Below, piece by piece: positions 28,305 to 31,600 of a DNA stretch of 64,000 nucleotides. Position 1 is the first letter of the stretch; each line of letters begins with the position of its first letter. Both the position numbers and the translations under genes were made by a program. The notes under the pieces were generated by a model, which did not search any database, was not told where the DNA came from, and was given only the letters and a program-made list of their open reading frames with translations. Origin of the DNA: Halogranum rubrum (GTDB lineage Archaea; Halobacteriota; Halobacteria; Halobacteriales; Haloferacaceae); NCBI RefSeq assembly GCF_900114455.1, contig NZ_FOTC01000001.1, positions 1,203,058 through 1,267,057 on the forward strand, written 5' to 3'.

Positions 28305-28931
28305 ATGAGCGACGAACACGTACTCTTGCTCGGACCGCCGGGTGCAGGAAAGGGAACACAGAGCAAGCGACTCGCCACCGAATTCGACCTCGAACACGTC
28401 ACGACGGGTGACGCACTTCGGGCGAACAAGCATGTGGAGACGGAACACGGGACGCCCGCCTCGTTCATGGACGCTGGCGAACTCGTGCCCGACCCCGTCG
28501 TCAACGAAATCGTCAAGACGGCCCTCGAAGACGCCGACGGCTACGTCCTCGACGGCTACCCGCGAAACCTCTCGCAGGTCGAGTACCTCGACAGCGTGAC
28601 CGACCTCGACTACGTGTTCTACCTCGCCGTCCCCGAGGACGAACTCGTCAACCGACTCACCGGCCGCCGCGTCTGTCCCGACTGCGGCGCGAACTACCAC
28701 GTCGAGTTCAATCAACCCGAAGAGGAAGGCGTCTGTGACGAGTGCGGTGCCGACCTGGTTCAGCGTGACGACGACACCGAAGAGACCGTCCGCGAACGTC
28801 TTCGCGTCTACCACGAGAACACCGAACCCGTCGTCGAGCACTATCGTGAGAAGGGCACACTCGTCGAAGTCGAAGGCGAGGGAACCCCCGACGACGTGTT
28901 CGAGCGCATCGCCTCCGAAGTTCGCGACTAA
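28305..28931 (+). CDS. adk: Adenylate kinase
   Basis: Adk interconverts ATP plus AMP with two ADP. The 208-residue protein has the P-loop GPPGAGKGT (10-18), the AMP-binding YPRNLSQ segment, and a zinc-type LID domain with C124, C127, C144 and C147 (CPDC and CDEC), typical of long-form bacterial-type enzymes. The gene opens the conserved archaeal block adk - DUF106 - cmk - cbf5. Here a 1.75-kb insertion separates it from DUF106, and secY is absent from its upstream side. Confidence 0.97.
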
Positions 28932-29319
28932 TCGACCAGTCGGCGAATCGGTAGAAGACGGTTAGTCACTACGTGGAGGTTGCGTACATCGATTCCTCCA
29001 CGTTCATCCGCCTTCAGGTACTCACACCGTAAGCGACCGGTCTCGCAGTCGCTCCTCCCGTCGTCGCTGTCGAATGGAGCCGAGAGAGACGAGTCGTCGA
29101 TGCTCGAAGCCGACTCTACGCCTTCGAACGAGTGGCACCACTTGGGAGTGGCCGAAGACGAGAGAGCGACTGCTCGTGGAGAAGTACTGCCGAAAAGCGA
29201 ATCGAAGGGACGAAAATAGAACTCCTGCTCGAGTCGGCCCGTATCGGGAGACGTAACCTCGCGTGGAGAGGAGTCAACCGAGGCGCTGATTCGTGCTGGA
29301 GGTGGTTAGTTCAGACTGC
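28932..29319. other. Left part of the islet between adk and the curlin-repeat gene
   Basis: These 388 bases have no supported gene. A frame from 28980 to 29219 is open but starts at TTG, is basic rather than acidic, and has no promoter at the right spacing. The only clear structure is the 9-bp hairpin at 28971-29003. Confidence 0.4.
28971..29003 (+). repeat. Perfect 9-bp inverted repeat after adk
   Basis: ACGTGGAGG (28971-28979) and CCTCCACGT (28995-29003) flank a 15-base loop, 40 nt after the adk stop. It may end or protect the adk transcript, or mark the junction of the islet. Confidence 0.45.
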
Positions 29320-29859
29320 TCAGCCCTGGTAGACGACTTGGGTCTGGCTGCTGGACTGCGACTGGCTTGCGGTGTTCTTGTAGCCGCTCTGCTTTGCCGA
29401 CTGGTACTGGCTGTTCTTCTGCTTCTGGTCAGCGTCGTTGTACTTGCCGTACTGGACAGCGTCCTGGTACTGGTCGTTGTACTGGTTCTGTCGGGCCTTG
29501 TTGTACTTGCCGCGCTGCTCGGCTTCCTGGTACTGGTCGTTGTTCTGGTTCTGTCGAGCGTCGTTCTTGTGACCGAACTGCTCGGCCCACTGGGTCTGGT
29601 AGTTCTTTTGGCGCTGGTTCAGCTTGTTCTCCTTACCTTTCTGCTTGCCGAACTGGCCTTGCGTGTTGTCTTGGTGTTGTCGAGCGTCGTTCTTCCAGCC
29701 GAACTGCTTCGCCCACGAACTGGCGTCGCTCTTCTGTTCCTGTTTCGCGTCGTTGTCACCTGAGTTGTGCCCCGCCGCTGCGACACCTGCGAAACCGCTC
29801 AGGGCGATGATTGCGACGACGAACACGACGAGACTCTGTCTTCCAAATTTGCCTAACAT
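29320..29859 (-). CDS. Secreted curlin-repeat (CsgA-like) protein, putative functional amyloid
   Basis: The 179-residue protein has a Sec signal peptide (about 1-29, LVVFVVAIIALSGFAGVAAA) and a short Asp/Lys/Gln linker. Six repeats then follow at an exact 21-residue period. Each fits the curlin core Q-x-G-x2-N-x-A-x3-Q, starting at Q52, Q73, Q94, Q115, Q136 and Q157; the only core change is Leu for Ala at residue 80 in repeat 2. In CsgA/CsgB of bacterial curli the same core at about 22 residues stacks into a beta solenoid that polymerises outside the cell. The mature part is rich in Gln, Asn, Lys and Tyr and poor in acid compared with the proteome. No csgG-, csgE- or csgF-like gene is nearby. 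The start follows the signal peptide; an ATG 11 codons upstream is possible. Confidence 0.85.
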   Translation of the reverse strand: MLGKFGRQSLVVFVVAIIALSGFAGVAAAGHNSGDNDAKQEQKSDASSWAKQFGWKNDARQHQDNTQGQFGKQKGKENKLNQRQKNYQTQWAEQFGHKNDARQNQNNDQYQEAEQRGKYNKARQNQYNDQYQDAVQYGKYNDADQKQKNSQYQSAKQSGYKNTASQSQSSSQTQVVYQG

Positions 29860-30206
29860 TGTCCATCTGCCGGGGAGTTCCCGACATCCCAACCATCGCC
29901 GAATCTCGTATTAGTTACTCATCTTAGTCTCTCGAATAAACTCGCTGATTTATCAGTATTTTCGAGTAGAATACGATGACACTCGTAAAATCGACACCGA
30001 CAGAATGTCTACCCTGCGACCCTGACGACGTCGGTTTGGTTTGTCGATTATGCTGCCACTTAGCCGAAACATCGCTCGGATGAGGGGCAGTTACACTGTA
30101 GTAATCGGCGGATTGTTCGTGTGAAACTATTCTTCGGATTAGACACTTCTAGTAGACAGACACTCGCTGGTCTGACAATCGCTCTCGGCACGGTTCGTAT
30201 CGTCTG

Positions 30207-30382
30207 ATGGTCGTCGACACCGACTACACCTCTGATACCGAGGATATCCGAACCGAAGGTCGACGGGTCGGCCACGAGACGGGCGTCCCACTGAACGAAG
30301 GAACGACTACATCGAGGAACGGGTACTCGTCGACGACGTGACGCGGCGTCTCACGCGCTACTATCCGCTCCGTTCGGAGTGA
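30207..30382 (+). pseudogene. Frame-disrupted small gene remnant (tentative)
   Basis: From ATG 30207 a frame reads MVVDTDYTSDTEDIRTEGR and stops early at TGA about 30343. In the frame one base over, a haloarchaeal-looking tail reads YIEERVLVDDVTRRLTRYYPL and ends at TGA 30380-30382. Joined by a single frameshift near 30300 they would give a short acidic protein. No family is recognised, so this may be chance. Confidence 0.25.
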
Positions 30383-30495
30383 CGACGCCGGAAAAATCGA
30401 ACCGCTACTCGGAGAGAAAAGAAAAGAAGAGAAGTTGGCCCTTTCTGACGGACGAGTCACTTCACTCGGTTGCAGTCGACGCTAATCTGTGCTAG

Positions 30496-30579
30496 CTACC
30501 GAACATAGTCTTGGATGACGCCTCGAAACTGACTGCTCTTCTGCTCTTGGCGAGCGTCGTTGTCCTTTTCGATAGACGC
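30496..30579 (-). pseudogene. Decayed curlin-repeat fragment
   Basis: Between two in-frame stops the minus strand encodes IEKDNDARQEQKSSQFRG. The stretch NDARQEQ matches the second half of the repeat core in the intact gene (NDARQHQ and NDARQNQ) at N, A and Q. No start codon, signal peptide or second repeat survives. It is best read as the remnant of a second copy, about 640 bp from the intact gene and on the same strand. Confidence 0.45.
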
Positions 30580-30651
30580 TCACCGATAGCTGTCAACCTT
30601 CTCACTGTACTCGTCCTCGCGCGAACCGAGGACGAGCGGCAGAGTAAAAGC

Positions 30652-30659
30652 TTGATAAA
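30652..30659 (+). promoter_or_regulatory. TATA box of the DUF106 gene
   Basis: TTGATAAA is centred about 27 nt before ATG 30683, which fits a leaderless transcript and argues for that start over the in-frame codon at 30662. Confidence 0.55.
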
Positions 30660-30682
30660 CGGTGGTTGCCTACAGACGGGTA

Positions 30683-31600
30683 ATGGCACGTATCGAATCG
30701 AAGGTTCGGTCGCTCGTCTCCAACGACCCGGAGATGCGAGGGGCCATCGAAACTGTCCTCACCCGCTCGGAGGACGGCGAAGTCAAGTGGGTCGACGTCA
30801 AGAACGACATCACGAGCGGACAGTGGGGTCGGCTCATCGAGAAAGGCGTCCTCGTCGACGGTGACGAGGGCTTCGAGTTAGCCGACCCCAGTGCGACCCG
30901 CGAAGGACTCGAAAACGGGTCGTCGAGCACGAGTACGACGAGCACGTCGAGTTCCGGCGTCGACGACGTCGAAGGGACGTCGTGGTCGAAGTACGACAAA
31001 GGGGCTGCCGTCGTCACGGTCGGTCTCTTCCTCGGCTACTCCGTCACGCAGGTTCGGAACGTCATCGGCGGCGCGATGGACGTCGTCCTCGGCCCGCTGG
31101 CCGAACTCTTACCGTTCTACGCCGTCGTGATGGTGCTCGCACTCGGAACTGGCCTCTACTCTACGCTCCTTCAGGCGAACCTGATGAACATGGAGAAGAT
31201 GGGCGCGTATCAAGAGCGGATGAAGGACATCCAGTCGCGCCGGAAAGAGGCGCAGGAAGCCGGTGACGACGCCGCGCTCGAAGCCATCCAGGAAGAGCAG
31301 ATGGAGGCGATGGGCGACCAGATGGGGATGTTCAAAGAGCAGTTCCGCCCGATGGTGTGGATCATGTTCCTCACCATCCCGGTGTTCCTGTGGATGTACT
31401 GGGCCATCGGCATCGGCGGGAACCCGGTTCACGTCGACCTCCAGCCACTCGTGCTGCCGCTGAACGGGTCGGTCGAGTGGACCGAAAAGATTCTCGGTCC
31501 CATCCAGACGTGGATCATCTGGTACTTCCTCTGCTCGATGGCGTTCACCCAGATCATCCGGAAGGGGCTGAACATCAGCACCACGCCGTCGACGAGCTAA
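30683..31600 (+). CDS. DUF106 membrane protein (archaeal YidC/Oxa1-like insertase)
   Basis: This 305-residue protein of the Ylp1/DUF106 family is the archaeal relative of YidC, Oxa1, Get1 and EMC3, which insert membrane proteins. A soluble N-terminal region (about 1-100, with a Ser/Thr-rich linker) is a haloarchaeal extension. Then come a first hydrophobic segment (about 105-125), a second at about 145-165, a long positively and negatively charged hairpin coiled coil (MNMEKMGAYQERMKDIQSRR onward to about 225) and two C-terminal membrane segments. It sits in the conserved adk-DUF106-cmk-cbf5 order. Confidence 0.93.
   Translation: MARIESKVRSLVSNDPEMRGAIETVLTRSEDGEVKWVDVKNDITSGQWGRLIEKGVLVDGDEGFELADPSATREGLENGSSSTSTTSTSSSGVDDVEGTSWSKYDKGAAVVTVGLFLGYSVTQVRNVIGGAMDVVLGPLAELLPFYAVVMVLALGTGLYSTLLQANLMNMEKMGAYQERMKDIQSRRKEAQEAGDDAALEAIQEEQMEAMGDQMGMFKEQFRPMVWIMFLTIPVFLWMYWAIGIGGNPVHVDLQPLVLPLNGSVEWTEKILGPIQTWIIWYFLCSMAFTQIIRKGLNISTTPSTS

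Follow-up and report, generated by a model that had tools for sequence, protein, structure and literature searches.

Curli are the best-studied functional amyloid and have been treated as a bacterial structure, with archaeal cases limited to passing mentions and dye staining (PMC3521004; PMC4180959). The curlin kernel has been defined as N-$-Psi1-$-Psi2-$-Q followed by an X-G-X-X arc, and it occurs twice in each repeat of about 22 residues, where Psi is one of A, I, V, L, F, S and T and each repeat contributes a pair of short strands and a pair of arcs; in the AlphaFold2 models published for CsgA homologues, which are solenoids, pLDDT averages 83 (PMC10192328). Dueholm et al. (2012) used X6QXGX2NX10 as the minimal curli repeat and reported one archaeal protein whose curli-like repeats are regularly spaced; by its description, that protein is like the one considered here in being archaeal and in this regular spacing (PMC3521004). 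Biofilms of Haloferax volcanii stain with Congo red and thioflavin T, the gene being assigned only tentatively (PMC4180959). The sheath protein SH of Methanospirillum hungatei is likewise an archaeal extracellular amyloid-like beta assembly but, again compared by description, it has another architecture and a cap domain (PMC10593813). A survey of the open-licence literature found no description of a haloarchaeal Gln-repeat family or of a Halogranum fibre protein.

The gene considered here, which encodes the protein P0001, lies in a 64,000-nucleotide stretch of the Halogranum rubrum genome (the whole stretch analysed, hereafter the window). The features of the locus are as follows, in window coordinates.

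28305..28931, plus strand: adenylate kinase-like gene (adk), the upstream neighbour, convergent.
29320..29859 including the stop codon, minus strand: P0001 gene, for a 179-residue secreted Gln/Asn repeat protein; based on its translation, paralogues in its own genome and a syntenic H. amylolyticum orthologue.
29323..29754, minus strand: seven units, residues 36-179, N-x-A-x-Q-x-Q-x-N-x-Q-x-Q-x-A-x-Q-x-G-x-x; from sequence and motif count, with the core/surface entropy of the family.
29323..29376, minus strand: conserved last unit NTASQSQSSSQTQVVYQG, residues 162-179; from aligned family members.
29692..29754, minus strand: variant first unit, residues 36-56, with a conserved Trp49 (invariant in 5/5 family members).
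29773..29859, minus strand: predicted Sec-type signal peptide, codons 1-29, read from the sequence.
29869..29885, minus strand: leader hairpin GTCGGG-AACTC-CCCGGC, 9 nt before the ATG; common to paralogues, with paired changes.
29911..29917, minus strand: TAACTAA element, the likely transcription-start region; invariant in seven family genes.
29935..29940, minus strand: TTTATT, a possible TATA box about 23 nt before TAACTAA, read from the sequence.
30662..31600, plus strand: membrane protein gene, which we take to be DUF106-like; the divergent neighbour on the other side, followed by cytidylate-kinase-like and truB-like genes.

A first-pass annotation of this DNA had called an exported protein of six repeats with an exact 21-residue period, broken in its core only by a Leu at residue 80. 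The open reading frame was placed exactly and begins at an ATG, and both the period and the Leu are borne out by motif counts and shuffles. Export is supported by the Sec-type signal peptide MLGKFGRQSLVVFVVAIIALSGFAGVAAA, which was read by eye, has a conserved counterpart in the paralogues, ends in AAA with G as the next residue, and contains neither a Tat twin-Arg nor a lipobox. The motif Q-x-G-x2-N-x3-Q-x-Q begins at Q52, Q73, Q94, Q115, Q136 and Q157, a spacing of exactly 21; Ala is present in five of the six copies and Leu80 in the remaining one. The motif is better written with its second Gln, as Q-x-G-x2-N-x-A-x-Q-x-Q. In the mature protein, Q-x-G-x2-N-x5-Q occurs six times (mean of 20,000 shuffles 0.057, maximum 2), and 61 of 129 residue pairs at lag 21 are identical (shuffle mean 13, maximum 27). 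The count of six holds for the Q-x-G-x2-N motifs; when units are counted from Asn, the protein has seven (N36-G54, N57-G75 ... N162-G179), the last of which runs right up to the stop codon, and the protein contains no other domain. The first unit is a variant (A-S-S-W-A) with a Trp that is invariant across the five family members aligned, and the core of the last unit, SQSQSSSQ.Q, is found in Halomarina and other genera as well. The composition of the protein is extreme in Q, N, D, E and K.

The gene sits on contig 6 of a 4.57-Mb genome, on the opposite strand to the adk and DUF106-like genes that enclose it. An orthologue of 206 residues, 63% identical, occupies the same place in H. amylolyticum; the interval between the two flanking genes is 1.7 kb in the window (28931-30662) and 1.2 kb in H. 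amylolyticum, whereas in a third Halogranum genome (G081, L101) about 170 bp separate the same two genes and no repeat gene is present between them, which indicates that it was gained or lost as a unit. The control region is common to the short and medium family genes. Hairpin arms are GTCGGG/CCCGGC in P0001, GTCAGGG/CCCTGAC in P0002, and GTCGGG/CCCGAC or GTCGG/CCGAC in others, variants that amount to paired (compensatory) changes, and an A/T-rich box precedes TAACTAA in most of the seven family genes, which come from two species. With zero mismatches allowed, the combined pattern of TAACTAA and hairpin occurs only twice in the 4.57 Mb, before P0001 and P0006 (window 29869-29917, minus strand, and G000:C8:287371-287419, L103), and it has no match in the controls. 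The family is probably co-regulated, and the TAACTAA/hairpin leader is a possible new leader-RNA or translation control element. The genes of P0009 and P0010, and the H. amylolyticum genes at L043 and L048, share another hairpin in their leaders, GACGTT..AACGTC, after which come CCCCAA, a short stretch and the ATG.

The genome encodes six secreted proteins of this family: P0001 itself (179 residues), the acidic paralogue P0002 (221 residues), whose gene adjoins a serA-like gene, P0006 (315 residues), P0009 (about 587 residues) and the tandem pair P0010 and P0011 (678 and 637 residues). The family unit was defined as N-x-[AQVI]-x-Q-x-Q-x-[NS]-x-Q-x-Q-x-A-x-Q-x-G-x-x, and P0001 has the signal peptide, the 21-residue units and the conserved last unit SQSQSSSQ that mark its members. 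The family profile matches 12 of 391 Halobacteria genomes, and only 2 of 393 genomes sampled across the phylum, both of them in the window's own taxonomic family; no relative was found in viral contigs. Short-form relatives include a plasmid-borne protein of 138 residues in Halomarina and three in a row in G238, a genome of another family. The large haloarchaeal members (P0009-P0011 and proteins of G238, G095, G078 and G262), which are paired in several genera, share with P0001 the 21-residue repeat, the signal peptide and often the conserved last unit, but they are 300-800 residues long, the Ala of N-x-A is mostly Gln, and some are membrane-anchored, with stalks that are acidic or rich in Ser/Thr. 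Tandem large genes are seen across several haloarchaeal genera (L039 8767-13176; L043; L085; L086; L087; L088). Proteins of the P0011 type have a membrane segment at the N terminus and a stalk that is either acidic or rich in Ser/Thr/Pro, and this suggests a surface-anchored partner. The P0009 gene (L040 8645-19205) lies beside genes that, by eye, resemble type IV pilus genes, namely those of an ATPase, a membrane protein and several pilin-like proteins. At L047 9394-10332 in H. amylolyticum, a run of N (a gap or masked sequence) falls in a His/Asp/Lys-rich stretch before the repeats of one paralogue.

Conservation within the repeat follows a strict alternation. Over 53 units from nine proteins of several genera, the positions assigned to one strand face (N, A/Q/V/I, Q, Q, N/S, Q, Q, A/S, Q) have a mean entropy of 0.56 bit, compared with 2.76 bit at the alternate, surface positions, and this supports the earlier claim of strong selection on Gln, Asn and Gly. 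The same pattern of conserved core and varying surface columns, together with the shared promoter and leader hairpin and the same-place orthologue in H. amylolyticum, makes it scarcely credible that the proteins are a neutral or selfish repeat expansion with no function of their own, even though the distribution is patchy and the gene is absent from the third Halogranum genome. Alternatively, P0001 could be a secreted component of a coat or matrix, hydrated and mostly disordered, with a repeat that binds water and ions and takes no fixed fold, as its composition and the long acidic paralogues with Ser/Thr-rich tails would suit; near-invariant Gln, Gly and Asn columns across several genera, in strict alternation, would not be expected of disorder, and such a protein is judged quite improbable.

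The alternation runs unbroken over 17 residues and is interrupted only at X-G-X-X, which, set against the published curlin kernel, points to one lengthened strand and one arc per 21-residue repeat. A longer period is superimposed on it, as repeat n resembles repeat n+2 more closely than n+1 in most of the large proteins tested (permutation tests, with P values uncorrected for multiple testing). For lag 2 over lag 1, P values were 0.0003 for P0009, 0.0003 for P0010, 0.002 for P0006, <0.001 for G238, 0.005 for G078, 0.0007 for G262 and 0.026 for G095; in partners of the P0011 type the preference fell below significance, and amongst the short proteins one from H. amylolyticum weakly alternates (P=0.046). 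No alternation was seen in P0001, which offers only five full units to test, and the claim of a super-period therefore rests on the paralogues. At matched residues, codon identity for n+2 does not clearly exceed that for n+1 (0.70 vs 0.75 in P0009; 0.72 vs 0.77 in P0010), although it is slightly higher in G095, so that a recent duplication of blocks does not simply explain the pattern in most of these proteins. A 42-residue super-period that is present at the protein level and mostly absent at the codon level indicates that two 21-residue repeats probably make one structural unit, and it fits a 42-residue coil or a pair of up and down strands equally well.

The family shares with CsgA and CsgB (PF07012) a Sec signal, tandem repeats of about 22 residues bearing Q-x-G-x2-N-x-A-x3-Q, Gln/Asn ladders and a polar, variable surface; it differs in having no Pfam match, one arc per repeat, Gln in place of the I/L/V core, and no csgG, csgE or csgF. 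The Pfam curlin-repeat model PF07012 matches neither P0001 nor anything else in its genome at E<=10, whilst the haloarchaeal curlins P0007 and P0008, used as positive controls, match at E=1e-36 and 2e-45. Sequence searches of P0001 against Pfam, NCBIfam, PADLOC and the PDB, including the solved curli chains, gave nothing meaningful; weak Pfam and NCBIfam matches lay far under the cut-off and were attributed to composition. Models of CsgG, CsgE and CsgF likewise found nothing over the cut-off in the genome, and a CsgF-like match in a 1452-residue frame (E=0.008, 18 bits) was set aside as under the cut-off and of a kind that unrelated control genomes also give. A cell with a single membrane needs no csgG-type pore, and csg helper genes are for that reason not to be expected in this genome.

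A profile of the family repeat, built on multi-repeat stretches with the signal peptide left out, scores CsgA at 19.2 bits, CsgB at 17.7 bits, other bacterial curlins at 26-33 bits and the Pfam-positive haloarchaeal curlins at 45-62 bits. Of 200 decoys in which composition and period were kept, not one reaches any curlin score, and 0-2 of 300 do so when the alternation is also kept. In the reverse direction, a profile made from bacterial curlins only scores P0001 at 10.2 and P0002 at 20.6 bits, each above all 300 decoys; family forms without the Ala receive no score. The link depends on the multi-repeat profile, as a single-unit profile scores bacterial curlins mostly at decoy level, and the similarity is built on the same short motif that first singled P0001 out. 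The motif-level similarity to curlins is real, and either shared ancestry or convergence towards one ladder geometry could account for it.

The highest profile scores belong to the haloarchaeal curlins, P0007 and P0008 and their like (genomes G181, G192, G308 and G368), which are secreted, have one arc per repeat and match the family profile. Their repeat, N-x-A-x-V-x-Q-x-N-x-A-x-V-x-Q-x-G-x-x, differs in its Ala/Val core, 15-residue strand and 19-residue period, and they belong to another genus and family and have other neighbours; as read from their sequences, these repeats are intermediate between the curlin kernel and the 21-residue Q-repeat. The four genomes, all of one genus, each carry such a Pfam-type curlin (L049 9052-9789, L050 8885-9508, L092 8841-9521 and L093 8876-9499), scoring up to 152.8 bits with PF07012 in the two that were scanned, and each adjoins a conserved membrane-like protein of 258 residues. 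The copy in G181 has Cys in alternate arcs near its start.

It might be argued that P0001 is a true curlin, each 21-residue repeat forming a full rung of two short strands as in CsgA, and thus an ordinary curli-type amyloid. The motif Q-x-G-x2-N-x-A-x3-Q, profile scores above those of decoys and the minimal repeat X6-Q-X-G-X2-N-X10 of Dueholm et al. (2012), present in six copies exactly 21 apart (PMC3521004), all speak for it. Nonetheless it is rather unlikely, because the second X-G-X-X arc is lacking and the core alternation is unbroken for 17 residues, Gln occupies the hydrophobic core positions, Pfam gives no match, the large paralogues have a two-repeat super-period, and AlphaFold2 places one strand in each repeat. 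The P0001 repeat has neither two kernels, nor the small or hydrophobic Psi residues, nor two arcs. The first-pass annotation had taken its motif for the defining core of CsgA/CsgB, and this has to be given up, since the published kernel has two strands and two arcs in about 22 residues where P0001 has one arc per 21; what survives is a likeness that is real though distant, given profiles that beat decoys, no Pfam or PDB match and a core that is mostly Gln.

A six-turn solenoid had also been anticipated. AlphaFold2, run on P0001 with three orthologue and paralogue rows (a four-sequence alignment), returned instead a low-confidence model (mean pLDDT 62) that is all beta past the signal peptide, with one strand of 17-18 residues per repeat (57-74, 77-94, 99-116, 119-137, 142-158 and 161-177); the strands coincide with the N-to-Q stretches and break only at X-G-X-X. 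The H. amylolyticum orthologue modelled worse (pLDDT 51, four-sequence alignment). Beta structure is well supported, but the models do not support a six-turn solenoid, as a pLDDT of 62 compares with 83 for the CsgA homologues that are predicted as solenoids; a wider solenoid stays compatible. When the low-confidence P0001 model was compared with the PDB and with viral models (Foldseek, VIA-align), the matches were barrels, pores and similar folds, all at E>0.001 and too weak to interpret at this level of model confidence; the PDB neighbours listed were antiparallel barrels and sheets of apolipoprotein B, with no curli chain among them. These strands and neighbours would suit a flat antiparallel beta sheet, an up-and-down meander with a Gln-rich face that perhaps pairs face to face into sheets and forms no solenoid, and the 42-residue super-period suits up and down strands equally. 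Such a meander is considered unlikely, given the low confidence of the model, the profile link to curlins, and the X-G-X-X-N turn with Asn/Gln ladders, which is that of the published curli arc (PMC10192328).

The preferred reading, to which we give about an even chance, is that the P0001 family consists of exported 21-residue beta-repeat proteins with stacked Gln/Asn ladders that assemble end on end into extracellular fibres or sheets. P0001 would be exported by the Sec route and is made almost solely of the repeat, each copy of which would form one 17-residue strand from Asn to Gln and then an X-G-X-X arc; alternate side chains of the strand (N, A, Q, Q, N, Q, Q, A, Q) would make up a single conserved face. 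Stacking of the repeats would set Gln and Asn in hydrogen-bonded ladders as in curli, around a core that is nearly all polar, and two successive repeats would probably form one structural coil, a solenoid being favoured over stacked hairpins. Outside the cell the subunits would most likely stack end on end into fibres or sheets, given that P0001 lacks any further domain and terminates at the edge of a strand; such polymerisation may give the family a role in a matrix, coat or biofilm. The weak AlphaFold2 models unlike curli, the missing Pfam curlin match and the lack of alternation in P0001 count against this reading, and the data may also be compatible with a monomer that stays soluble or with a coat protein that is disordered and hydrated. 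A more specific version, possible but doubtful, is a 'wide curli' with two 17-residue strands per coil and a near-pure Gln/Asn core suited to saturated salt, built from small P0001-like and giant (up to about 800 residues) subunits, with a membrane-anchored P0011-type partner that could serve as nucleator, usually encoded beside a P0010-type gene, and shared control signals.

P0001 is thus read as a secreted repeat protein that is curli-like without being a curlin, and most likely as a unit from which an extracellular beta fibre or sheet is built, and the haloarchaeal Q-repeat family is best read, from its sequences, as a new curli-like family of extracellular beta-fibre proteins. As a coherent multi-gene family with a distinct, mostly polar repeat, it would give a concrete set of genes for archaeal matrix fibres. 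It would also be an instance of curli-like export that uses no outer-membrane pore, and would allow a natural test of whether, in saturated salt, a beta stack can be held together by Gln/Asn ladders alone.
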